From contig WGLR01000038.1 of assembly GCA_016125475.1 (NCBI GenBank), positions 1 through 42,414 on the forward strand: a DNA stretch of 42,414 nucleotides, in the 5' to 3' direction. Below the pieces are notes generated by a model that saw nothing but the letters and a program-made list of their open reading frames with translations, ran no database searches and was not told where the DNA came from. Positions 1 to 26,586 of this stretch are shown in pieces (position 1 is the first letter of the stretch; every line of letters starts with the position of its first letter). The translations under genes were made by a program, and so were the position numbers. This stretch comes from Betaproteobacteria bacterium. GTDB taxonomy: Bacteria > Pseudomonadota > Gammaproteobacteria > Burkholderiales > Ga0077523.

Positions 1-81
1 CCTCCGAATGCCGACGTCGACGTCGCCGTCCCGCAATCAACTGTCCTTCGATAGTGCCCATGTGTCCACCATGACCCTTGA

Positions 82-498
82 TGGACACGATCCTCCTTCG
101 CGCTTCTACACACGACAAGATGGGTTCGCCGGACGCTTACGGACCAAGTTCCTGCCAGTAACCTCATCTTTGTCCGTTCTCGCCGCGAGGAGCACATCAA
201 GGAACGTCAATCAGCCCTCGCCGACCGATGCTGGCCATTCCACGAATGCGTCATTGCGACACTTCGGCCAAGGGCAATCTTGTGTCTTGGGGCAACGGCC
301 GGAAACTACGTGCGCAAGCGGTTTTCCGCCTCTCGCCTTTTGGGCCAGTTTATCGAGCAGAACAATCGTCGGTGGAAGAGCCAAACGTTCGCAGCAGCAT
401 CGGGTCCCCGAGTCGTCATTGCCACCCATCCGAGCATCGCTGACTGGTCTGCGTCAGCTACTGACCCAAGCCGTCTTGTTCAAGAGGCTCTGCAATGA
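82..498 (+). pseudogene. Broken uracil-DNA-glycosylase-like gene, C-terminal part
   Basis: In frame 1 this stretch encodes a protein-like sequence with no stop until TGA at 496-498. It includes NLIFVRSRREEH, then ILCLGATAGNYV, then VVIATHPSIADW. A 'GATA' turn followed by an 'HPS' motif is the pattern of the C-terminal half of the uracil-DNA glycosylase superfamily, where the His-Pro-Ser loop contacts DNA. Upstream in the same frame there are stops at 52-54 and 79-81, and the first ATG is at 280, inside the conserved part, so the catalytic N-terminal half is missing or frameshifted. The stop lies 1 bp from attC1, so the gene abuts an integron recombination site in the opposite orientation to the neighbouring cassette genes. 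The family call rests on two motifs only; it could be an unrelated Rossmann-like fragment. Confidence 0.45.
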
Positions 499-499
499 T

Positions 500-565
500 G
501 CCCAACAGAACGCTCGTTCGGACTGTCCGCCTGCGGCGTCCGGCCGCACAGCGCAGTCGTTATGC
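500..565 (-). other. Integron attC recombination site 1
   Basis: Read on the minus strand, the 66-bp site begins with GCATAAC (R'' core, consensus RYYYAAC) and ends with GTTGGGC (a perfect R' core, GTTRRRY). Between them are imperfect inverted arms (around GGAC/GTCC and GCC/GGC with a TGC loop). It begins 1 bp beyond the TGA of the 567-1310 gene, the usual position of attC after a cassette gene. Its R'' is the exact complement of GTTATGC, the core that opens the same cassette at attC2, which is what excision/integration at attC requires. The sites are near-palindromic, so the orientation is inferred from the gene directions. Confidence 0.7.
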
Positions 566-566
566 G

Positions 567-1310
567 TCACTTGGTGGCTCCAACAAAAACTATTCGAATC
601 TGAAGGGGATTTTCTTCGTCACCACCCCGAAGAATGATGTTTCCGTCGCGAACGAAACGCAAGTCTTTCAGCTTGTCTTGAAACTCGGCGATCTTGTGTG
701 ACTGGCCTTTGAAAATGGTCTTTGCCGATTTTTCATAAACACGGTCTATTACAGACGTTACCGCCTTGCAATGCTCGAGAATTGCGTCATCGAGTTTGAC
801 TGTCCGAGTTTCGCTACCTCTGTTCTCGGTGACCATGCATGCAAACCCTGACAGGCCGATACGAACCGGCACGAAGGCTTGTGTTTTACTTCCGCCAGGA
901 GAAAGAAAGTCAAGGCTGTGCGAAGCAAGTTGATGTCGAAGAGTTCTTATTTCGAGTGTGTTGAACTCGGCTTGAACCTCCTTGGGCTTCGGACAATTCA
1001 TCAATGAGTAGAGCTTGAGCACCGCTTGTTGCTGGACGTAGGCGGCGCTCAATAGTCCGTAAAGTCGAAGATACCGTTCGCCCACGTCTTCGTAGCGCGA
1101 TGGACCATCCAACGAAAAACGAAGAAAGTTCTGCAAAGCGAGTGTGGCATCACCTACAACGTCCATTGCTACGCATATGAACTCCCAGTCTCTCCGATCA
1201 TTTAGCCTGAGAGCTTGATCGGGGGACTCATCTCGTCCCCAAACTCGGGCATTCACCAGCGAGCGAAAGGCGTCTGCGTAACGCTCAAGAACGGTAAGCG
1301 GGCTATTCAT
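567..1310 (-). CDS. HEPN-like helical protein in an integron cassette
   Basis: 247-residue soluble protein with no signal peptide or membrane segment. Its helix-rich middle contains IRTLRHQLASHSLDF, in which R125 and H131 form an R-x5-H motif. That matches the R-x4-6-H signature of HEPN ribonucleases, many of which act in toxin-antitoxin and phage-defence systems. I do not recognise a named family; the HEPN call is an inference from this motif and the helical character. The start at 1310 (MNSPL) is preferred over the upstream in-frame ATG at 1364, because that ATG lies inside attC2. The coding region then starts about 20 bp after the attC core and ends 1 bp before attC1, so one gene fills the cassette. 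Base composition is less GC-rich than the chromosomal genes after 3.5 kb, consistent with acquisition. A structural or other HEPN-fold role is equally possible. Confidence 0.7.
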   Translation of the reverse strand: MNSPLTVLERYADAFRSLVNARVWGRDESPDQALRLNDRRDWEFICVAMDVVGDATLALQNFLRFSLDGPSRYEDVGERYLRLYGLLSAAYVQQQAVLKLYSLMNCPKPKEVQAEFNTLEIRTLRHQLASHSLDFLSPGGSKTQAFVPVRIGLSGFACMVTENRGSETRTVKLDDAILEHCKAVTSVIDRVYEKSAKTIFKGQSHKIAEFQDKLKDLRFVRDGNIILRGGDEENPLQIRIVFVGATK

Positions 1311-1328
1311 GTGCGGGCGGGGTTTGAC

Positions 1329-1409
1329 GCATAACGACCGGCATGACCGGCGCCCAAACAGCAAGCGAAGCGCAGCTGTTTGGGCATCCGGTCGATACCG
1401 AGGTTAGCC
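1329..1409 (-). other. Integron attC recombination site 2
   Basis: On the minus strand this 81-bp site runs from GGCTAAC (R'') to GTTATGC (R'). Its centre is an 11-bp perfect inverted repeat, GCCCAAACAGC (1352-1362) and GCTGTTTGGGC (1375-1385), closed by a small GCG-AAG-CGC loop, with outer GACCGG/CCGGTC arms. It therefore folds into the long bulged hairpin typical of attC. R'' is the exact complement of GTTAGCC, found on the minus strand at 3213-3219 where the two-gene DUF262/HEPN cassette begins. R' matches the R'' of attC1. This double match across consecutive sites is hard to get by chance. Confidence 0.8.
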
Positions 1410-1460
1410 GTCGACATGTCGCTGCCACAACGAGTCATGAGTGACCGCCGGGTGCGTTCA

Positions 1461-1985
1461 CTACGGTTTTGCGATCGTCCGGGCAAAGGCGACTACCACG
1501 CTGGCCTCGAGCTGGTCGAGCATTTTGCCAATGATCCTCTGTTGGTTAATTGTCCAGCTCGGCGCATTGACTGTCTGCTGCTGAACGACCGGGGCACCGG
1601 TATGAGTGTGTGCGAGCAGGCCGCGACTCTTCCAAAGCGTCGTCAAGGCACCCTTCAACTGCTCTAGCTTTCCGGGACTGGACTGCTCAAAGGTGAACTC
1701 CAGATGGGCGATGCCGGACTCGCCGACTACCTTCGAAAGCATCTTGCGGAGGTGATCTTGGTAAGTAAAGCCGTGGTTGTCCTTGAGCACATTGCTGACG
1801 ACCCACTCTGGATCGAGCCCCGCTAGCGTTCCTGCGGCTTGCACCATGGAATCCAGACGGTGCTCAAGCCAACCACACAACTCCAGCGTGGCGAGCTTCG
1901 CGAGGAACTTGGGGCGATCAGTTCCGCCAGGGAGTTCGCCGTACCACCGGTCCAGCTCCTTGAGGCTGTCCTCAATCTGGGCCAC
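1461..1985 (-). CDS. HEPN-family protein paired with DUF262 protein
   Basis: 174-residue helical protein. Near the C-terminus it has LWKSRGLLAHTHTG, in which R121 and H126 form an R-x4-H motif (H128 also fits R-x6-H), the active-site pattern of HEPN ribonucleases of the MAE_28990/RiboL-PSP type. Translation starts at GTG 1985, only 8 bp after the TAG of the DUF262 gene at 1994, so the two genes are almost certainly co-transcribed and translationally coupled. HEPN proteins encoded next to DUF262 proteins are a known association in defence contexts. The likely role is an RNase or abortive-infection effector controlled by the DUF262 partner. attC2 begins 51 bp after its stop, so the pair forms one integron cassette. 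HEPN family confidence is moderate, and the biological role is inference. Confidence 0.72.
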   Translation of the reverse strand: MAQIEDSLKELDRWYGELPGGTDRPKFLAKLATLELCGWLEHRLDSMVQAAGTLAGLDPEWVVSNVLKDNHGFTYQDHLRKMLSKVVGESGIAHLEFTFEQSSPGKLEQLKGALTTLWKSRGLLAHTHTGAPVVQQQTVNAPSWTINQQRIIGKMLDQLEASVVVAFARTIAKP

Positions 1986-1993
1986 AGTGGCAC

Positions 1994-3088
1994 CTATGCG
2001 AACGCTGCGATAGCCTGACGCAGTCGCTCCTTCACGGTTTGAGCACTTGATAGTGCATAGCGCGCACCTGCTGAGAACGTAGGCAGAGTCTTAAACTTCT
2101 CAGCACGCTCCTTCGCCCAAGTGGTTGCTTGTGCGCTTGCGGGTGCTGGCGCGGTTGAGAGATTTGCGGTAACCCCAACAAGGATGCCTTCCATGAAGGT
2201 CAAAGACCGCTTGCCAGAGCCTAGCGAGTCCACCACCTTCGCAGCGAGCGCGGTTGACCTCTCAAGCGAGGCTCGCCAATTCGCGATCTCCTCGGCCGAC
2301 GACTTGGATGCAAAGAGCATGTACTCGTTGAGGAACCCAGCCAAGTTGCCTTCGTACTTTTCAAGCCAATCGCTGAAGGCAAGCATCCGCAAGAGAATCT
2401 CAACTGAACGGAAGCGGTCCATCTTTCCCCAGATGCGGCGATGGACGAGGTGCCACGGCTTGTGGGCTCGGTCCACGGACTTCAGCATGTCGTTGAACTG
2501 ACCGGAGTAGATGCAATTGCGAATTTCTTGGTTATTTAGCCGGACGCCGCCGGAGTTGAGTCTGTTGAAGATCGTGAAGAGATAGCGCATGTGCGACGGA
2601 TTGCGATAGTCGCATCGAATTACTGTGATCGGAATGGATATATCTTCAACGCTAGCATAGAGCTTCCGTTCCTCCTCAGACCCGTTGCGCAGTTGTACAT
2701 TCTTCTTGCCTTTAAGTAGCGGGTGGATGTCGTCAGCGGGTGCGATTCGCCACTCGGCAGTCCCGAGGAAAGAAGTGATGGTGTGCATCCGTTGCAGGCC
2801 ATCAATGACCTTCCAAGTCTTGGAGTTCGCATCTAGACTAAAGCACATGCTGGGGATCGGGAGCTGCTTGACCAGAGAGTCGATAAAACGAGCTTGCTCT
2901 TCGACCTTCCAAACCACATCACGTTGAAAGTCCGGCTGGATCTCCAGCTTGCCAGACGCGTGCATTCGGTGGAGATCAGCACAAGACCGAAGCTCGTTGT
3001 AGGCGACGACGTTCTCAGGTGGGATTGGCTGATCCCGGTCTTCCTCGAAGAAGGTCTGCTCTTCTTCAGCCTTTGCAGTTGTAGTCAA
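1994..3088 (-). CDS. DUF262 domain protein (GmrS-N/ParB-like NTPase family)
   Basis: 364 residues. The N-terminal half carries DUF262 hallmarks: IQPDFQRDVVW at residues 50-60, the DGLQR motif at 96-100 (D-G-Q-Q-R in most relatives) and FNRLNSGGVRLNNQEI near 170-190. DUF262 is the ParB/sulfiredoxin-like module of GmrSD-type restriction enzymes and other defence proteins, where the DGQQR motif serves nucleotide binding or hydrolysis. No C-terminal HNH nuclease (DUF1524) is visible, so this is the short single-domain form, probably relying on the HEPN gene as effector. Start is TTG at 3088, chosen because GAGGAG lies 8 bp upstream on the minus strand; no better ATG is in frame. It is the first gene of the cassette that opens at GTTAGCC (3213-3219). 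Its composition is less GC-rich than the rest of the window. Confidence 0.85.
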   Translation of the reverse strand: MTTTAKAEEEQTFFEEDRDQPIPPENVVAYNELRSCADLHRMHASGKLEIQPDFQRDVVWKVEEQARFIDSLVKQLPIPSMCFSLDANSKTWKVIDGLQRMHTITSFLGTAEWRIAPADDIHPLLKGKKNVQLRNGSEEERKLYASVEDISIPITVIRCDYRNPSHMRYLFTIFNRLNSGGVRLNNQEIRNCIYSGQFNDMLKSVDRAHKPWHLVHRRIWGKMDRFRSVEILLRMLAFSDWLEKYEGNLAGFLNEYMLFASKSSAEEIANWRASLERSTALAAKVVDSLGSGKRSLTFMEGILVGVTANLSTAPAPASAQATTWAKERAEKFKTLPTFSAGARYALSSAQTVKERLRQAIAAFA

Positions 3089-3159
3089 TCCTTGCTCCTC
3101 AAGCGGACGGAAGTACTTGTACCCTACGTCGGCGTCATTCTAGCCCCGACAGTGCGGGC

Positions 3160-3191
3160 CTAGCACAGGCTGGCCTTCAGTGCTGTGCTAG
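3160..3191 (-). other. Leader hairpin upstream of DUF262 gene
   Basis: CTAGCACAG (3160-3168) and CTGTGCTAG (3183-3191) form a perfect 9-bp inverted repeat with a 14-base loop, 72 bp upstream of the DUF262 start codon within the same cassette. It could be an mRNA leader structure, an operator, or part of a degenerate recombination site. No GTTRRRY/RYYYAAC pair brackets it convincingly, so attC is not claimed. Confidence 0.4.
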
Positions 3192-3212
3192 CCAACTTCC
3201 GTGCCCGTCGAC

Positions 3213-3338
3213 GGCTAACTTGATTTCTGGAGACAGATCTGCCGGATATCCCGGACGCGGTTACATATCACAGGGCAAAGTCTCCCGCCTTCTCCAGAAC
3301 TTGAATCCGATACCTCTGCATTCCGTGCCGTGTTGAAC
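3213..3338 (-). other. Candidate degenerate attC/attI at cassette-array edge
   Basis: On the minus strand the segment ends with GTTAGCC (3213-3219), the 5' core of the DUF262/HEPN cassette, and begins with GTTCAAC (3332-3338, fits RYYYAAC). Inside are TTCTGGAGA and TCTCCAGAA arms (3225-3233 and 3291-3299). This fits a long attC of about 126 bp or an attI-like end, but the stem is weaker than in attC1 and attC2. No integrase gene is seen on either side, so the array may be a CALIN (attC cluster lacking integrase) or the edge of a truncated integron. Confidence 0.3.
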
Positions 3339-3429
3339 GTACACAGCCACTCCCCCGTCAAGTTCATCTCGTCCACGCCGCATCCAGACCATCAGGCAGA
3401 ACGTTTACCACAAGTCACTCGCAATCGCG

Positions 3430-3445
3430 TGTGAACTATTTCACA
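3430..3445. promoter_or_regulatory. CRP/FNR-like palindromic operator
   Basis: TGTGA-ACTATT-TCACA matches the 5-6-5 consensus of CRP-family sites exactly. It lies 342 bp upstream of the DUF262 start and 64 bp beyond the helicase stop. No matching -10/-35 pair is obvious next to it, so binding is inferred from pattern alone. Confidence 0.35.
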
Positions 3446-3507
3446 AACTCGCCCGGGTTTCGTCCAGTCAGCGCATCGCTCCTCGGATGGTGGCCCCTCA
3501 CCTAGGC

Positions 3508-6042
3508 TCATCGGCCAGAGCCCCGCCCGACCCGCCTCCCCACCTCCCGCTCCGCCGCCCTCTCCAGATCCGCCACCATCCGTTCGACGCGATCGCTCAC
3601 CTTTTCGGTCGAGAGCTTCTCCCGAATGCGTTCCACGAGGATCGGGAACGAGAATGGCGTCGGACGGGATGCGTGGACGATGCGGATACGTTTGGCCGTG
3701 ATCTCGCGCAGAGTGATGGCGAGGCGCGTGAATTCGAGTTCCTGTTCGAGCACTTCGCGGCGCGACTGGAGGAGGAGCAGGTTGCGGGGGTCGTACTTCT
3801 CGAAGACCTCGTAGAAGAGCTGGCTGGAGGCCTGGAGTTGCCGGGTGCTCTTCGGCTGCCCAGGGTAGCCCTGGAACACGAGGCCGGCCACGCGCGCGAT
3901 CTCGCGGAAGCGACCGCGTGCGAGCTGACCGAAGTTGAGGCTGTCGAGGACGTCGGCTTCGAGCTTGGTGTCGCTGAAGAGTCCGTCGGCCATCGCGCCT
4001 TCCCAGTCGATCGGCTCCGGGCAGAGCAGTTCCAGGCCGTAGTCGGTGGCGCAGATCGAAAAGCTTGCCGGTCGTGTACGTGCAATACGCCAGGCGAGCA
4101 GGCTCGCGAGGCCGGTGTTGGCGTGCCGGCCCGCGAAGGGGTAACAGAAGAAGTGATGGCCCTCGCGCGTCTTCAGGATCTCGATGAGCAGTTCGTCTTC
4201 GGCCGGAATGTGGGACCACCGGGCCTGCAGCCGGAACAGGGGGGCGAGGGCCTGGAGCTCGGGTTCGGCGTAGTCCTCGCGGCCCGCGCGCTCGACGAGG
4301 TCGACGACGGCGTGGGCAAGCTCGGACGAGAGCGGCATCTTGCCGCCGTTCCATCGGGGCACGGCACCCTTCCCGGCCTTGCCGCGGCGCACGTAGGCGG
4401 TCATCTCGTGCACGCGCACGAGTTCGAGCAACCGACCTGCGAACAGGAAGCAGTCGCCCTTGTCGAGCCGGCCGATGAACGATTCCTCCACGTAGCCGAT
4501 GCGCCCGCCCGAGAGCCAGCGCACTTCCATCGCGGCGTCGCTCACGATCGTGCCGACCGACATGCGGTGGCGCCGCGCGATGCCGGCGTCACGGACGACG
4601 TGCACGCCCGTCTCGTCGACGACGACACGGTGATACTCCGGATAGGCGTGCAGCGACGAGCCCCCGCGGATCACGAAGTCGAGCGCCCACTGCCATTCGT
4701 CGTCCGTGAGCGCGCGGTACGCGTGCGTGGCGCGGACCTCGTCGCGCATCGCATCGGGCAGGAAGCCGCCGCCGAGCGCGACGGTGACGAGGTGCTGCAC
4801 GAGGACGTCGAGAGGCTTCTCCGGCGGGCGGCGGGATTCGATGTGCCCGGCTTCGGCGGCACGTCGCGCGGCGGCGGCCTCGACGAGTTCGAACGCGTGC
4901 GACGGCACGCACGTCACGCGCGAGGTCCGTCCCGGCGCGTGCCCCGACCGCCCGGCACGCTGCAGCAGCCGCGCGACGCCCTTGGGGCTGCCCACCTGCA
5001 GCACGCGTTCGACCGGAAGGAAGTCCACGCCGAGATCGAGGCTCGACGTGCAGACGCACGCCTTCAGCGTGCCCTGCTTGAGCCCCTGCTCCACCCAGTC
5101 GCGCAGGCTGCGGTCCAGCGAACCGTGGTGCAGCACGATCAGCCCCGCCCAGTCCGGGCGCGCATCGAGCAGGGCCTGGTACCAGAGTTCCGCCTGCGAG
5201 CGCGTGTTCGTGAACAGCAGCGTGGTCGCTGCCCCGTCGATCTCGCGAACGACGCGGTCGAGCAGCCGCACGCCCAGGTGCCCCGCCCACGGAAAGCGCT
5301 CCATCGACGCCGGGATCACGGTGTCGACCGCGACACGTTTCGGCACCCGACCCTCGACGCGAAGACCGGCGTGTCCCGGTCCAAGCAGCACCTCCATGGC
5401 GACGTCGAGATTGCCGAGCGTGGCCGACAGCCCCCACACGACGAGATCCGGGTTCCAGCGGCGCAGCCGCGCGAGTGCGAGCTGGGTCTGCACGCCGCGC
5501 TTGTTGCCCATGAGTTCGTGCCACTCGTCGACGATCACGACCCGGACGCGCTGCAGCTGCTCGCGCGAGTCCGCCCGGGAGAGCAGCAGGCTCAGGCTCT
5601 CGGGCGTGGTCACGAGCGTCTCCGGCAGACGCCGGGCCTGTCGGGCACGCTCGCCGGACGACGTGTCGCCGGTGCGAACGCCGACGGTCCACGGCAGTTC
5701 GAGCGCACCGAGCGGTACTTCGAGCGCGCGCGCCGTGTCGACGGCGAGTGCGCGCATGGGCGTGAGCCAGAGGACGGCGAGGCCGCGCGGGTCGGCCCCC
5801 GCCGTGGCGAGCACGTGCCTCAGTGCGCCCATCCAGACGGCGTAGGTCTTGCCGGCTCCGGTCGTTGCGTGCAGCAGGCCGCTCCGGCCGGCGGTCATGC
5901 CGGACCACACGGTTTCCTGGAACGGGAACGGTTGCCAGCCCCGGGAGACGAACCACTGCCGGACGAGTCGATCGAGAGGCTCGGTGTCCCCGACATCGTC
6001 GCGACGCGGCCGGGTCGCCCGGCGTTGCCGGACGTCGCTCAT
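3508..6042 (-). CDS. Ligase-associated DEXH-box DNA helicase (Lhr-like)
   Basis: 844 residues, about the usual length of ligase-associated DEXH helicases. Superfamily 2 motifs appear in order: Walker A in [10 protein letters not shown] (K65), motif Ia [12 protein letters not shown] box ([12 protein letters not shown], about residue 174), motif III GLSATLG (about 206), and motif [12 protein letters not shown]. The C-terminal ~400 residues are the Lhr-specific winged-helix/DUF4145-like region. The family unwinds DNA and is encoded beside an ATP-dependent ligase and an MBL-fold exonuclease in a conserved repair set thought to act on DNA damage; both partners are present upstream on the same strand. 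Here a gene for an exported protein and a 311-bp gap separate it from the ligase. Start ATG 6042 gives a normal N-terminus. Confidence 0.93.
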
Positions 6043-6353
6043 CGCGCGTCGAATCCGCTTACAGACACGCCGCCGACCTCGACCATCGTGCGCCGGGACC
6101 CTGCCCAGTCACGAAGAAGGCGGACATGGCACCCGCCTTGCTCGCAACGCCAGCGTTGCCGCACATGCCCGTGCACCCGGCCTCTCCGGAGGCACGATGC
6201 ACGACAACAAGAGGAGACCATCGCCCGACGCGCGTCGGGCGGACATCCCCCGGCAGCCGCCACGGCCGCCCCTTCCTCGCGATACGCGCACGGGAGGATC
6301 GGGCGGCCGGTGCCGCGTCGTCACCGACGCTTGCCCCGGAGCACCCTCCGCGA
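6043..6353. other. Intergenic gap within the repair gene set
   Basis: No convincing gene. A 74-codon minus-strand reading frame (6039-6263) is rejected because its composition is arginine/cysteine-rich and family-less. The main landmark is a 20-bp perfect palindrome at 6222-6241. The gap probably contains the 3' end of the exported-protein transcript and the helicase promoter. Confidence 0.5.
6222..6241. terminator. 20-bp perfect palindrome, possible terminator or operator
   Basis: CGCCCGACGCGCGTCGGGCG is its own reverse complement over all 20 bases. It lies 113 bp downstream of the stop of the 6354-7031 gene. There is no T-run on the minus strand side, so a classical intrinsic terminator is doubtful; a cruciform or dimeric regulator site is possible. 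Confidence 0.35.
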
Positions 6354-7031
6354 TCATTTCGCCGGTTCGGACATGTCCACGCCCGCGGGCTCCGAGAACA
6401 GGGTCATGTCGAGCGGCACGTCGTTCGCGTACTTGTCGTAGCGCACCGCATACTCGACCTTCTCGTTCTTCAGCGACACCTGAACGGCCTTGTTGGTCCC
6501 CTGCCTGAGCCAGAGCCGCAGTTCGGTACCGTCCTGGTCGATCTTCAGCACGTCGCATTCGATCCCGTCCAGCGTCTCGGGCGACTGCGGCACCCCGCCG
6601 TGCGACTGGAAGAACGCTGCCTCGCGGCCCATCTGCAGGCCCTTCAGGCTGTCGGGCATGCCCGAAGGAAAGACCGGGAAGACCACGTTGTAGGTCGGCC
6701 CCGGATCGATGCCGTGATGGCCGCGCTTCGAGACCTGGTCGACGACCCAGGTGTCGGGCTCGTTCGTGACGAGCAGGCCCTGGGCGCCCGTCACGGGATT
6801 CAGCGGCTCCTCGAAACGCAGGAAGCGGTCCTTGTAGCGCCAGAGCTTGCGCGTTTCGCCGTCGAAGCTGTCCGGCTTGATCCAGGCGGCGACGAAGTGG
6901 AATTCGATCACCGTCATCCGGGCGTCTGCGGCCCGTGCGTTCGCGGCCGGCAGGAACGGGAGCACGGCCGCGATCCAGCCGATCAGAACGGGTGCCGCGA
7001 GGAGCCGCCCGAAGCGGCGCAATGGGTACAT
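6354..7031 (-). CDS. Exported protein of unknown function
   Basis: 225 residues. The N-terminus MYPLRRFGRLLAAPVLIGW shows an Arg-rich n-region and a hydrophobic core up to about residue 28, then an AxA-type cleavage region (ANARA-AD, about 31-35). It is therefore a Sec signal peptide and the protein is probably periplasmic. The mature part is beta-rich by appearance, with GREAAFFQSHGG and ECDVLKIDQDGTELRLWL. This resembles outer-membrane lipoprotein-sorting-like or DUF4412-type periplasmic folds, but I do not recognise the family. It sits between the ligase stop side (33 bp away) and the helicase on the same strand. No DNA-repair role can be claimed from the sequence; it may be a passenger in the operon. 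Confidence 0.75.
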   Translation of the reverse strand: MYPLRRFGRLLAAPVLIGWIAAVLPFLPAANARAADARMTVIEFHFVAAWIKPDSFDGETRKLWRYKDRFLRFEEPLNPVTGAQGLLVTNEPDTWVVDQVSKRGHHGIDPGPTYNVVFPVFPSGMPDSLKGLQMGREAAFFQSHGGVPQSPETLDGIECDVLKIDQDGTELRLWLRQGTNKAVQVSLKNEKVEYAVRYDKYANDVPLDMTLFSEPAGVDMSEPAK

Positions 7032-7064
7032 GGGAGTGAGCCTCGAATGGTTGATTGACTGGAG

Positions 7065-8678
7065 TCACGCGGGGACGGCTTCGAGCAGCCGGCGCAGGGT
7101 GTCGAGCGTGTCGGCGTCGGCGGCCTTCTTGTCTCCGCGGAGCCGAAGTATGCGCGGGAATCGGACCGCGATGCCGCTCTTGTGGCGCGGCGAGCGCTGG
7201 ATGCCCTCGAACCCGATCTCCATCACGAGTTCGGGCGTGACGCTGCGTACCGGGCCGAACTTCTCGCGCGTGTTCCGGCGGATGAAGGCGTCGACCTCGC
7301 GGATCTCGGCGTCTGTCAGCCCAGAGTAGGCTTTCGCGAAGGGGACGAGTTCGTCACCGCGCCACACGGCGAACGTGTAGTCCGTGTAAAGGCTCGCGCG
7401 CCGGCCGTGACCGCGTTGCGCATAGACGAGCACGGCGTCGACGCTCAGCAGGTCGACCTTCCACTTCCACCACTCGCCGCCGGGGCCGAGCTTCACGCGC
7501 CCCGCGCCATAGGGCGAGCCGCGCCGCTTGAGCATGAGCCCTTCGACGCCCCGCGCCCGCGCTTCCCCGCGCAGCGCCGCGAGGCCGGCCCAGTCGGCGG
7601 CGCGTACCGCGGACGACAGCACGAACCGCGAGTCCGCCACCTGCTCCACGAGGCCTGCGAGCGCGGCACGACGATCCTCGAAGGGCCGCGCGCGGATGTC
7701 CTCCCCGGCAAGTTCCAGCAGGTCGTAGCCGACGAGCGCGGCCGGGGCGGCGTCGAGCACGCGGGCCGTGAGCTGCCTGCGCCCGATGCGCTGCTGCAAC
7801 GCTGCGAACGGCAGCGGCCTGTCGTCCCGCCACGCGAGCAGTTCGCCATCGACGACCGTGCCGTCCGGCAGTCGTGTCCCGAGGTCGGCCAGTTCGGGAA
7901 ACCGGTCGGTGATGAGTTCGTCGCCACGCGACCAGAGATGCACGCCGCCGCCGCGCACGACGAGCTGCACGCGGATGCCGTCCCACTTCCACTCCGCGTG
8001 CCAGTCCTCGATGGGGCCGAGCTCCTCGACGGTGCGGTCGAGCGCGTGCGCGAGAAAGAACGGGTACGGACGCCCGGAGCGTTCGCGTTCCTGCGCGTGC
8101 TCGTCGGCACGCAGCGCGCGGTAGCTCGCGGCGGTGGGGGTCCACGCGCCCATGAGCCGTTCCGCGACGAGGTTCGGATCGAGGCCCGCCACCTCCGCCA
8201 CCGCGCGCGTGACGAGCTGTTTCGAGACCCCGACACGGAAACCGCCCGTGATGAGCTTGTTCCAGAGGAAACGGCTCGGCCGGTCGAGGTCGTCCCACGC
8301 GGCGACGAGCGCGGTCTCGAGCGCGTCGTCCCGCAGGTCACGCAGCGCCAGGAGTCGACCCTCGATCCACGCTGCGAGCGATTCGTCGGAATCGCGGACG
8401 GGCTCGGGCAGCAGGTGCGCGATCGTCTCCGCGAGGTCGCCCACGGCCTGATAGGACTCCTCGAAGAGCCAGTCGGGTACGTCCGCGAGGCGCCGGGCGA
8501 GATCCCGAAGCGTCCGCGTCGGCACGACCCGCTTCGGCTTCTCGCCGCTCAGAAAGTACACCGCCCACGCCGCATCGGCGTCTGGCGCGGACGCGAAGTA
8601 CTCGCGCAGCGCGGCGAGCTTCGCGTTCGTGGAAGTCGTCGCGTCGAGGGCCTCGTAGAGGCGAGCGAAGCGCTTCAC
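7065..8678 (-). CDS. ATP-dependent DNA ligase, ligase-associated repair set
   Basis: 537 residues. An N-terminal DNA-binding domain (about 1-200) precedes the adenylation domain with nucleotidyl-transferase motif I in EWKWDGIRVQ (K231 forms the ligase-AMP). Motif III-like VDGELLAW, motif IV-like EGLMLK and motif V WKWKVD follow, then the OB-fold with FAKAYSGLTDAEI. The length fits the ATP-dependent ligases encoded with the DEXH helicase and MBL exonuclease (single ligase, no polymerase or nuclease domain, so not full LigD). Start is GTG 8678, which overlaps the exonuclease TGA as GTGA, implying translational coupling. The usual fourth partner, the phosphoesterase PdeM, is not in the window. 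Confidence 0.93.
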   Translation of the reverse strand: MKRFARLYEALDATTSTNAKLAALREYFASAPDADAAWAVYFLSGEKPKRVVPTRTLRDLARRLADVPDWLFEESYQAVGDLAETIAHLLPEPVRDSDESLAAWIEGRLLALRDLRDDALETALVAAWDDLDRPSRFLWNKLITGGFRVGVSKQLVTRAVAEVAGLDPNLVAERLMGAWTPTAASYRALRADEHAQERERSGRPYPFFLAHALDRTVEELGPIEDWHAEWKWDGIRVQLVVRGGGVHLWSRGDELITDRFPELADLGTRLPDGTVVDGELLAWRDDRPLPFAALQQRIGRRQLTARVLDAAPAALVGYDLLELAGEDIRARPFEDRRAALAGLVEQVADSRFVLSSAVRAADWAGLAALRGEARARGVEGLMLKRRGSPYGAGRVKLGPGGEWWKWKVDLLSVDAVLVYAQRGHGRRASLYTDYTFAVWRGDELVPFAKAYSGLTDAEIREVDAFIRRNTREKFGPVRSVTPELVMEIGFEGIQRSPRHKSGIAVRFPRILRLRGDKKAADADTLDTLRRLLEAVPA

Positions 8679-9715
8679 GCGGCGTCTCCGCCTTCCGCCG
8701 CCGCGGTGTCGGCTTCGTCATCCGTGGTCCCGAACTGCGTCTCGAACGCGCGCGCGTCCAGGCCCTGTTCGGTGAGCCACCGCACCATCACGGGCACGTA
8801 CCCGTGGGTCACGAAGACGCGGTGCGCGCCGCTCTCGCGAATCGCCGTCTGGAGGCCGGGCCAGTCCGCGTGATCCGAGACCACGAAGCCACGGTCGACA
8901 CCGTTGCGCCGCCGCGCGCCGCGGAGCTGCATCCAGCCCGACGCGAATGCGTCGCTGTAGGCTCCGAAACGCCGGAGCCAGGTCGTGCCCTGCGCGGAGG
9001 GGGGCGCGAGCGCGATCGCGTGCCGGAACGCCGACCGGTCCGCGACGTCCGTCACGCGCAGCGTGGGCGGCAACGGCACACCGGCGGCACGATAGGCCTC
9101 GTTCAGGGTCTCGACCGCGCCGTGACAGACGATCGGCCCGATCGAAGGGTCCAGCCCTGCGATGAGCCGTTGCGCCTTGCCGAACGCATAGGCGAACAGC
9201 ACGCTCGCGCGTCCCGCATCGGCGTTCGCGCGCCACCAGTCGTTCACCGAGGCGAGCAGCTCGTGCTCCGGACGCCAGCGGTACACCGGCAGCCCGAAGG
9301 TCGATTCCGTCACGAAGGTGTGCGCACGCACGGGCTCGAACGCGCGGCAGGTGGGATCGCGGGCGAGCTTGTAGTCGCCGGACAGCACCCAGACTTCGCC
9401 ACGCGATTCGATGCGCACCTGCGCGGAGCCGAGCACGTGTCCCGCGGGATGGAGCGAGACGCGGACGCCGTTGAGGTCGACCGGATCTCCGTATTCGACG
9501 CAGTCGAGGGAGATGTCGCCGAGACGGTTGCGCAGCACACCCTCGGCATCGCGGTGTGCGAGGTAACGGGTGTGCCCGCGGCGGGCGTGGTCGCTGTGCG
9601 CGTGCGTGATGACCGCACGATCGACAGGTCGCCACGGGTCGACGTAGAAGTCACCGGCCTCGCAGTAGAGGCCGTTCGGCGTGAGGCGGATCAGGTCGGT
9701 GGACGGGAGGGACAT
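8675..9715 (-). CDS. Ligase-associated MBL-fold DNA exonuclease
   Basis: 346 residues, metallo-beta-lactamase fold. The zinc-binding HxHxDH motif is THAHSDHA (H38, H40, D42, H43). Further family marks are HPAGHVLGSAQV, SGDYKL and FVTESTFGLPVYRW, then a C-terminal SDHADW and VFVTHGY typical of the beta-CASP/SNM1-like group. These enzymes are co-encoded with an ATP-dependent ligase and a DEXH helicase and are annotated as ligase-associated DNA exonucleases. It is the first gene of the minus-strand set, its stop overlaps the ligase start, and the 184-bp repeat block lies directly upstream of it. Confidence 0.92.
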   Translation of the reverse strand: MSLPSTDLIRLTPNGLYCEAGDFYVDPWRPVDRAVITHAHSDHARRGHTRYLAHRDAEGVLRNRLGDISLDCVEYGDPVDLNGVRVSLHPAGHVLGSAQVRIESRGEVWVLSGDYKLARDPTCRAFEPVRAHTFVTESTFGLPVYRWRPEHELLASVNDWWRANADAGRASVLFAYAFGKAQRLIAGLDPSIGPIVCHGAVETLNEAYRAAGVPLPPTLRVTDVADRSAFRHAIALAPPSAQGTTWLRRFGAYSDAFASGWMQLRGARRRNGVDRGFVVSDHADWPGLQTAIRESGAHRVFVTHGYVPVMVRWLTEQGLDARAFETQFGTTDDEADTAAAEGGDAA

Positions 9716-25335: not shown

Positions 25336-26586
25336 TCAGTGTGTGCGGACGAAGAGCGTCGACAGACCCGGGCCCGCGCAATACGACTGCCACTGCGCGA
25401 TGGTTTGCGTGGCGAAACGTCCGGTCGCCCGAAGCAGCTGTCGCTGCCACGATGGCGTCTGCGCCCACGCCATGAGATCGTCGGCCACGGCCGCACCGGC
25501 GCGACCGCTCGCGCGCAACTGGTTCCACGCCAGCACGGCGCCGAGCTGGGGCAGCAGGGACGCCAGATCGTCGGGTCTGCGCGCAGCCGCCTCGAACGCA
25601 AGACGGTCCTCGCTCGGCTGAAGTTCGCGCACGACGTATGCGGCCGCGCCGATCGTCATCACGCCGAGGAATGCGGGGCTCGCGGCCTGCATCACGCGCT
25701 GCACCCAGACGACGCGGTCGGCCTCGGATCGCCATACCGGCTGCGGGATCGGACACTTCGGGACGGCAGCCGACGCCGGCGCACGCTTGATGTCGACGAG
25801 GACCGTCGACTCCCCGGCGAGATGCTGCGCGAGCGCGACGTAGCGTTCGGTACCGAGGCTGCCGTTGCCGGCGATCCGGCGCGCGACGTCGACGACGCGC
25901 GGCGCGTCCTCGCCGATGTGCGCCGCGCGTTCGCGCAGCCAGCCGTCGAGGTGGTCCCACAGGCGGAGCTTCTCGTGCCGTGCGGCGGGCAGCGCACGAA
26001 CGCCGTCCGTGACGAGCTTCGGGGATTTCCCGAGCACCGCGCGGTGTGCAAAGAGCTTGCGCGGCTTGCGCTTCGCGGCGCGTCTGACGAGCGTTCTCAC
26101 CGCTCCGCTCGCGACGGCACGTTCGACCCACATCGCACGCCCCCACGCGAGCGCGCGGGCGTACGCATCGAGACACGACGACGCCCACGCGTCCTCGTCG
26201 GCCCGCGAATGTGCGCCGATGCGTGCCGCGACGCGCAGCCCGGTCAGCAGCCGCGCGATGTCCCACGTCGCGGGTGCGAGGCAGGCTTCGTCGAAATCGT
26301 TCATGTCGAAGTAGACGAGCCGGTTGAATCCGCGGAACGTGCCGAAATTCTCCGAGTGCGCGTCGCCGCAGGACCACGCCGCGGGTGCATCGTCCAGCGT
26401 GCCACCGGGCCAGTCCGACCAGAACAGGAATGCCGTGCCCCGCAGGAAGCTGAACGCGTCGCGACGCAGCAGGGCGTCCTTCAGCACGAGGCGTTCCGGG
26501 TCGCGCCCTTCGTGCTGGCGAACGATGCGGTCCGTGAGGCTCCGCGCCGCTTCGCTTTCCCGGGACGGATTTCGTTGCCGACTCAT
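25336..26586 (-). CDS. DUF2252 family protein (kinase-like fold)
   Basis: 416 residues. WSCGDAHSENFGTF (about 75-88) is the DUF2252 version of the aminoglycoside-phosphotransferase catalytic HGDxxxxN, and VYFDMNDFDEACLAPATWDIARLL supplies the downstream metal-binding Asp pattern. DUF2252 proteins are of unknown function, and relation to protein/small-molecule kinases is inferred. Start ATG 26586 shares its A with the TGA of the preceding small membrane-protein gene (TGATG), so they are coupled. The longer frame to 26874 is a shadow. Confidence 0.88.
   Translation of the reverse strand: MSRQRNPSRESEAARSLTDRIVRQHEGRDPERLVLKDALLRRDAFSFLRGTAFLFWSDWPGGTLDDAPAAWSCGDAHSENFGTFRGFNRLVYFDMNDFDEACLAPATWDIARLLTGLRVAARIGAHSRADEDAWASSCLDAYARALAWGRAMWVERAVASGAVRTLVRRAAKRKPRKLFAHRAVLGKSPKLVTDGVRALPAARHEKLRLWDHLDGWLRERAAHIGEDAPRVVDVARRIAGNGSLGTERYVALAQHLAGESTVLVDIKRAPASAAVPKCPIPQPVWRSEADRVVWVQRVMQAASPAFLGVMTIGAAAYVVRELQPSEDRLAFEAAARRPDDLASLLPQLGAVLAWNQLRASGRAGAAVADDLMAWAQTPSWQRQLLRATGRFATQTIAQWQSYCAGPGLSTLFVRTH

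Follow-up and report, generated by a model that had tools for sequence, protein, structure and literature searches.

The left end of contig C2 in a Betaproteobacteria genome (GenBank GCA_016125475.1; order Burkholderiales) carries an array of integron gene cassettes, the first of which encodes a predicted PD-T4-2 anti-phage system. The window analysed here, 42,414 nucleotides, is the entire contig, one of 48 in a 4.88-Mb genome, and the assembly holds nothing to the left of base 1; below, G000 is this source genome, G001-G011 are its congeners, C denotes a contig and L a locus. The array occupies 1-3219. Read on the minus strand, it runs from an attI-like flank (3283-3220) and a core (3219-3213) through PD-T4-2_A and PD-T4-2_B to an attC site at 1409-1329, beyond which lie a second cassette and, on the plus strand, another attC site that faces the first (Table 1). 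GC content in 1-kb windows is 54-58% over 1-3000 and 61-73% further on, in agreement with the initial annotation, which had described the block as poorer in GC than the rest.

Judged from its sequence, the first cassette is complete and carries both genes of a predicted PD-T4-2 system, a combination of DUF262 and HEPN genes (PMC10952713; here and below, published systems are cited from parts of the papers named). The PADLOC profiles place an A gene (DUF262) beside a B gene (HEPN), and the matches cover positions 10-361 of 363 in PDLC04027 for PD-T4-2_A and 5-163 of 168 in PDLC04028 for PD-T4-2_B. The translation of the former contains an IDGLQR motif and matches PF03235 (E 2.4e-24); that of the latter contains the R-x4-H motif RGLLAH and has no match in Pfam or NCBIfam. 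By analogy with the family, the pair would work as elsewhere, the DUF262 protein being the sensing or NTPase partner and the HEPN-domain protein the effector. Adjacent genes and nearly full-length profile matches liken the pair to the published system, whereas in the window it is packed as a single integron cassette; no paper in the collection searched names both PD-T4-2 and integron. Defence systems carried in integrons have already been published (PMC12444791), and the initial annotation's view of such arrays as reservoirs of defence genes is in line with the predicted system in this cassette. At E-values up to 1e-60, PD-T4-2_A was found in two of 399 genomes of the order, the source genome and G325. 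Among plasmids the search returned 39 records, all of distant DUF262 proteins, and none of those tallied covered 80% of the query. The two nearest homologues found (53% and 56%; R. leguminosarum L190 and L192 of G325) have no attC site in the flanks examined. Between the array core and the start of PD-T4-2_A lies an imperfect palindrome (3142-3219) with a perfect 9-bp hairpin stem. Its fold (z -2.2) is equalled by 6 of 200 shuffles, and it may be an operator or a hairpin of the leader.

The second cassette encodes a 247-residue protein with no family in Pfam, PADLOC or NCBIfam and no relatives among viral contigs; its plasmid homologues are from Acinetobacter (37% over 84%) and Tenacibaculum (29% over 45%). 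Its structural model was too poor to interpret (pLDDT, the predicted local distance difference test, 42.5), and a lone weak PDB match (moesin, E 0.026) was not used. The cassette opens with its core at 1335-1329 and reaches GCATAAC, the complement of that core, at 565-559, where it runs into the backward attC. On the far side of this site a uracil-DNA-glycosylase (UDG)-like gene ends directly before it (stop codon 496-498). The 5' end of this gene is unreadable in frame; a frameshift near 160 or an off-contig start is possible. Elsewhere in the genome, a cassette at the right end of C17 (L080 10207-11998) holds a gene for an AAA_21 ATPase, whose frame is open to the contig end, and one for a DUF4276 protein, followed by an attC of 27.5 bits. 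We take this pair to be HEC-01/PARIS-like. At least two cassettes of the source genome thus look like defence by their predicted proteins.

Table 1. Features of the cassette array and its right flank, in window coordinates.
Feature	Position	Strand	Evidence or remark
Uracil-DNA-glycosylase-like gene, 3' part	82..498	+	PF03167 E 1.9e-4, TIGR00758 E 3.9e-4, both below cut-off
attC 1 (R'' GCCCAAC, R' GTTATGC), end of UDG-like cassette, faces attC 2	500..565	+	45.2 bits, E 2.8e-10
12-nt inverted repeat bounding second cassette	left arm 558-569, right arm 1325-1336	.	sequence match
Second cassette, unknown 247-aa protein	567..1310	-	no family match
attC 2 of PD-T4-2 cassette (R'' GGCTAAC, R' GTTATGC)	1329..1409	-	36.2 bits, E 8.7e-8
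PD-T4-2_B (HEPN-type, 174 aa, GTG start)	1461..1985	-	PDLC04028 E 4.9e-38
PD-T4-2_A (DUF262/GmrSD_N, 364 aa, TTG start), first cassette gene	1994..3088	-	PDLC04027 E 6.7e-132
attI-like site; core GTTAGCC 3219-3213 opens first cassette	3213..3283	-	homology to C17 region upstream of intI
Degenerate Pc-like candidate (TGGACG-N17-TGAAAT), 247 nt from core	3438..3466	-	pattern relaxed after looking
Lhr-type helicase, neighbour beyond array	3508..6042	-	PF19306, PF08494, PF00270

Since no Rfam family matched anywhere in the window at gathering scores, an attC covariance model was trained on 12 reference attC sites, half of them taken from plasmid class 1 integrons and half from congeners' arrays, and run with filters off over both strands of the whole window. 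The initial annotation had placed two attC-like sites at 500-565 and 1329-1409 and proposed such a run as the check; its coordinates were right, and both sites score with the model (Table 1). Lying about 0.8 kb apart, they provide the two or more nearby attC sites by which a cassette array is recognized. The next-ranked matches, of 20.1 bits (E 0.0024, at 4549) and 18.3 bits (E 0.0072, at 25870), fall among ordinary genes and are taken as chance; the model was only briefly calibrated, and E-values of about 0.001-0.01 are not trustworthy alone.

The same model assigns a strand to each site. No opposite-strand match spanning either site appears down to 7 bits; a 32-nt match on the plus strand (1353-1384, 9.9 bits) falls within site 2. 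In six plasmid loci, all 12 attC matches at E ≤0.01 (six of them model members) are on the expected strand, and the best wrong-strand match reaches 19.9 bits (E 0.012). Hence, scores of 36 and 45 bits are high enough for the strand assignment to be meaningful. A geometry-only finder scores site 1 at 14 on the plus against 12 on the minus strand, and site 2 at 15 on the minus strand with nothing at ≥12 on the plus; over both strands of the remaining 38.4 kb, four sites reach 12 and one reaches 14. The 5-nt and 6-nt spacers and the extrahelical base of site 1 best fit the plus strand, and the folding energy of site 2 is strongly low (z -7.2 and -6.7 versus shuffles). An earlier, crude finder based on strict RYYYAAC had returned site 2 alone, on both strands, and was superseded by looser and geometry finders and then by the model.

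The cores link the sites to their cassettes. GTTAGCC at 3219-3213 is paired with GGCTAAC at 1409-1403, both on the minus strand, and GTTATGC, found at 1335-1329 (minus) and 559-565 (plus), with GCATAAC. The initial annotation had read the R'' of each site as complementary to the opening core of its own cassette; this stands for GTTAGCC/GGCTAAC, while in site 1, on the plus strand, the GTTATGC at 559-565 forms the R' end. The inverted 12-nt copies at the two R' ends consist of GTTATGCGTCA and one preceding base.

To place the reversed site in context, attC sites with E ≤0.01 were tallied by hand in arrays whose anchor is an intI gene, a stump of one or an attI site. Fifty of the 53 sites point away from the anchor and three towards it. 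The tally draws on L049, L051, L052 and L053 (15 sites, six of them in the model and one cut by a contig end), on L179, L180 and L184 (14), on L194-L200 and L202 (22), and on the window (2). Left out were the plasmid loci, L203 (the same sites as L052), L204 (part of a recombinase, 39% identical, that is no integron stump), the anchorless arrays of C11 and the C17 right end, the chance matches of the window at 4549 and 25870, and all rows with E >0.01. The three anchor-facing sites are the window's at 500-565, L180 8108-8171 (E 0.0015) and L198 59-122 (E 1.5e-4), of which the latter two are weak enough that they may be chance.

The window's reversed attC is well supported by its sequence and needs reads. 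The strand choice of attC depends on extrahelical bases, and inverting these bases shifts the exchange point to R'' (PMC2727003). On the simplest reading, the second cassette's attC was used on its non-preferred top strand, and one integrase reaction would have linked its R'' end with the R' end of attC 500-565, leaving the UDG-like cassette inverted. It is unlikely that the convergent pair is instead an assembly artefact joining two unrelated array ends. Arrays do assemble badly in this genus: among the 11 genomes with an intI match, the contig breaks off no more than 1.6 kb beyond intI on its attI side in 8, and inside the gene in a ninth; but the shared inverted repeat, at 12 nt, is short for a misjoin, and two other congener arrays each hold one reversed attC match, both weak.

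At its right end, the array opens on the attI-like site. The flank of this site aligns with the region upstream of the intI gene on C17 at 70.6% identity over 68 columns, and the global score of 65 compares with a maximum of 31 in 1000 mononucleotide shuffles. When at most one mismatch is allowed, the 20-position attI motif TGATTTNNGGAGACAGRTYT has five occurrences among 300 genomes of the order, all of them beside an array or an intI: three in the source genome (C17, C8 and C2) and two in the congener G002 (C21 and C34). A reversed-pattern control gave none among the matches listed for these genomes, and viral contigs contained no copy of the motif. The C8 copy has a complete DUF2806 cassette with an attC (331-420) on the expected strand, and the G002 copies have 8 and 4 outward-pointing attC matches (E ≤0.01), with one more at the second copy that faces back. 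No integron integrase adjoins any of the four copies other than that on C17 in the searches made. A tyrosine-recombinase gene lies 3 kb from the G002 C34 copy, inside the array (C34:1133816-1134301; 31% identical to the query, E 3.8e-12); it adjoins a gene judged by eye to be an IS91-type transposase and is provisionally taken as the gene of that element. Given this attI-like anchor, the array resembles a decayed integron and not a set of cassettes of unknown origin.

The single intI above the family cut-off in the source genome is that on C17. It matches the integron-integrase model in two pieces, positions 1-284 and, after a gap of 248 nt, positions 287-315; the catalytic tyrosine lies in the second piece. 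The insert between them (L009 1192-1439) is about 245 bp long with 19-nt inverted ends, and related sequence, 72-78% identical, occurs on C38, C11 and C31, with one further piece of 39 nt at 87%; by these features it is an insertion like a miniature inverted-repeat transposable element (MITE), cutting the gene before the catalytic-tyrosine segment. An IntI above the model cut-off is present in 11 of the 12 genomes of the genus, the source genome included. The C17 protein is 77% identical to class 1 IntI1, yet 54-56% identical to eight congener IntI (mutually 67-97% identical) and 50% to the truncated IntI of G002, the G009 fragment having been left out of this comparison. From these identities we infer that the C17 integrase came from outside the genus's own lineage. 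Class 1 integrons are defined by a near-identical IntI1, and at 77% identity the C17 protein is IntI1-like and not class 1.

Loss of integrase sequence recurs across the genus. In addition to a main intI, congener genomes contain short 5' fragments of their own type of intI gene, most of them limited to its first 80-105 codons (G007 C14, C46 and C22; G003 C39; G001 C30; G008 C39 and C155; G006 C17), and G006 C35 holds a longer piece with a stop. Eight of the nine have attC matches (E ≤0.01) on the attI side, all but one pointing away; G007 C22 has no such match. Three stumps share a common break and new junction (G007 C14, L196; G007 C46, L198; G003 C39, L197), and the others break elsewhere. 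Because the break is shared by C14 and C46, at least one stump-attI unit was, by sequence comparison, copied within G007. Altogether, stump arrays with attC sites or integrase-less attI copies occur in 7 of 12 genomes (G000, G001, G002, G003, G006, G007 and G008), and none was found in G004, G005, G009, G010 or G011.

The cassette promoter, Pc, of class 1 integrons is located within intI1 (PMC2791841), and in the class 1 comparison locus it reads TGGACA-N17-TAAACT, 252 nt from the core. Elements of this type stand at 269 nt on C17 (TGGACA-N17-TATGCT), with identical hexamers at 268 nt on C8, and at 267 nt on G002 C21 (TGGACA-N17-TATCCT). In the bin containing Pc, which was picked after the motif was seen, these three loci agree at 72% pairwise against a control maximum of 0.50-0.56 (100 mononucleotide shuffles each), and the flanking bins are at control level; bin 0-60, with fewer bases compared, was left out. 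A class-1-type Pc is therefore kept in two of the four integrase-less attI copies (C8 and G002 C21) while the sequence around it has decayed; the G002 C34 copy has none. The window does not clearly keep a Pc: a strict promoter scan of 1-3520 found none, and in the bin that holds the degenerate candidate of Table 1 similarity is not above control. No class-1-type Pc was seen by eye in the congeners' own intI genes, and the claim of a retained Pc is thus restricted to the IntI1-type copies. Judged by titles and the openings of abstracts, none of the papers listed describes an attI with its Pc kept after intI loss.

The array is most likely an ordinary kind of object, a cluster of attC sites lacking integron-integrase (CALIN), with an informative origin. 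None of the genome's eight integrase-model matches is on C2, as expected from the initial annotation of an array without visible integrase; the stretch 3283-42414 has no match to the model, so that there is no intI adjoining the attI as in a complete integron, and whatever lay left of base 1 is beyond the assembly. Nor do the attC sites run in a single direction, which is usual and not obligatory. In the strict sense, a sedentary chromosomal integron is a large array with uniform attC sites; here the contig stops after two of them. The initial annotation's array without a visible integrase is supported, but the attI-like anchor at 3213-3283 and the face-to-face attC pair had been overlooked.

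We therefore regard it as very probable that the window holds a CALIN derived from an IntI1-type integron that lost its integrase, with attI still attached, one attC reversed and a defence cassette in first position. Growth of the array would have begun at the attI-like site (3219-3283) and proceeded on the minus strand, and the integrase gene of this copy would have been lost later, leaving a CALIN with attI retained. The PD-T4-2 cassette would then occupy the position nearest the place of the integron promoter, where no intact Pc is seen. The genome's arrays are probably frozen now, because the only above-cut-off intI is cut by the MITE-like insertion before its catalytic tyrosine. The window's attI has no conspicuous intI remnant next to it, so that the loss of the gene from this copy is deduced from its sister copies, and the similar erosion seen in the congener stumps was counted in its favour.

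Several observations weigh against this account. The left flank is unseen, the contig ending at base 1, and in a 48-contig assembly a misjoin at the 12-nt repeat is possible. The folding of attC 500-565 (z -0.3 and -1.5) is matched by many shuffles, and the identity of this site rests on the covariance model and the spacer and extrahelical-base geometry, to which folding hardly adds. Beside the window's attI, an intI remnant is not above chance (alignment score 97 versus a shuffle maximum of 116), and the best tblastn match to intI nearby (E 0.026) lies at a distance from attI unlike that on C17.

Two other origins were considered. The array and the C17 intI locus could be the two ends of one large integron, each end with its own attI copy and the two copies in facing orientation. 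C17 does end 134 bases past its core, and C2 ends in the UDG-like gene with an attC pointing away from the missing left; but no exact end overlap of 15-200 nt joins C2 to other contig ends, and with a third attI on C8 and an array at the C11 left end other joins are equally likely; we consider this origin quite improbable. There is still less to recommend the view that no integron was ever here and that an integrase placed the cassettes behind the Lhr gene, in an ordinary secondary site of the chromosome (attG type): such insertions are published, according to work cited in PMC12444791, and the window's site is the least like C17 in the 60 bases before the core (34/60 versus 50 and 56, copies aligned in register), but its flank is homologous to the attI upstream of intI beyond the mere core, and the motif is restricted to the source genome and G002 among the 300 genomes.

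A CALIN left by integrase loss invites comparison with three published systems. Xanthomonas arrays away from ilvD are likewise attC arrays without adjacent intI, with chromosomal intI truncation or loss and some defence cassettes, and CALINs at other loci are known there (PMC12444791); in contrast, the window keeps attI, this type of attI has several copies in one genome and one attC is reversed. The class 1 platform (PMC2791841) is approached by C17, with an IntI 77% identical, a similar Pc and an alignable attI (1 of 1000 shuffles as good), but the C17 IntI is not IntI1 by identity, its locus is apparently chromosomal by its neighbours, and its integrase gene is interrupted. Delta-attI-type cassettes of mobile integrons (PMC12901181) also place attI-derived sites away from the usual position beside intI; there, attI fragments end cassettes inside arrays, whereas in the window the array starts at the attI-like site, which has an ordinary gene on its outer side.

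That gene, the Lhr-type helicase, belongs to a repair-type cluster (3508-9715) with an ATP-dependent DNA ligase and a metallo-beta-lactamase-fold gene; an unknown gene of 225 residues sits between helicase and ligase. It should also be noted that the left end of C11 (L079 1-16400) holds an array of small cassette-like genes with eight attC matches at E up to 5, all on the plus strand and three at E ≤0.01. DUF772 transposase genes with a near-identical N-terminus occur there (L079 956-2467) and on C17 (L080 9239-10069), each starting 57 nt from an attC end; they may represent an attC-targeting insertion sequence, the C11 attC match being weak (19.6 bits).

CALINs may originate by loss of intI or from cassettes left at secondary sites. 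PMC12444791 mentions both routes, and arrays still bearing attI or an intI stump are direct sequence evidence for the former. With this array, a predicted PD-T4-2 pair joins the defence systems that integron cassettes carry. More speculatively, and with low confidence, the genus may repeatedly shed the integrase and keep attI, in some copies with Pc, as a maintained expression dock onto which other integrases might load cassettes in trans, of which the window would be a worn copy with a first-position defence operon. The Pc hexamers kept in two integrase-less copies, between bins at chance level, suggest selection for cassette expression after mobility was gone, and it is this repeated loss of the integrase with attI and sometimes Pc kept that is the part worth following.

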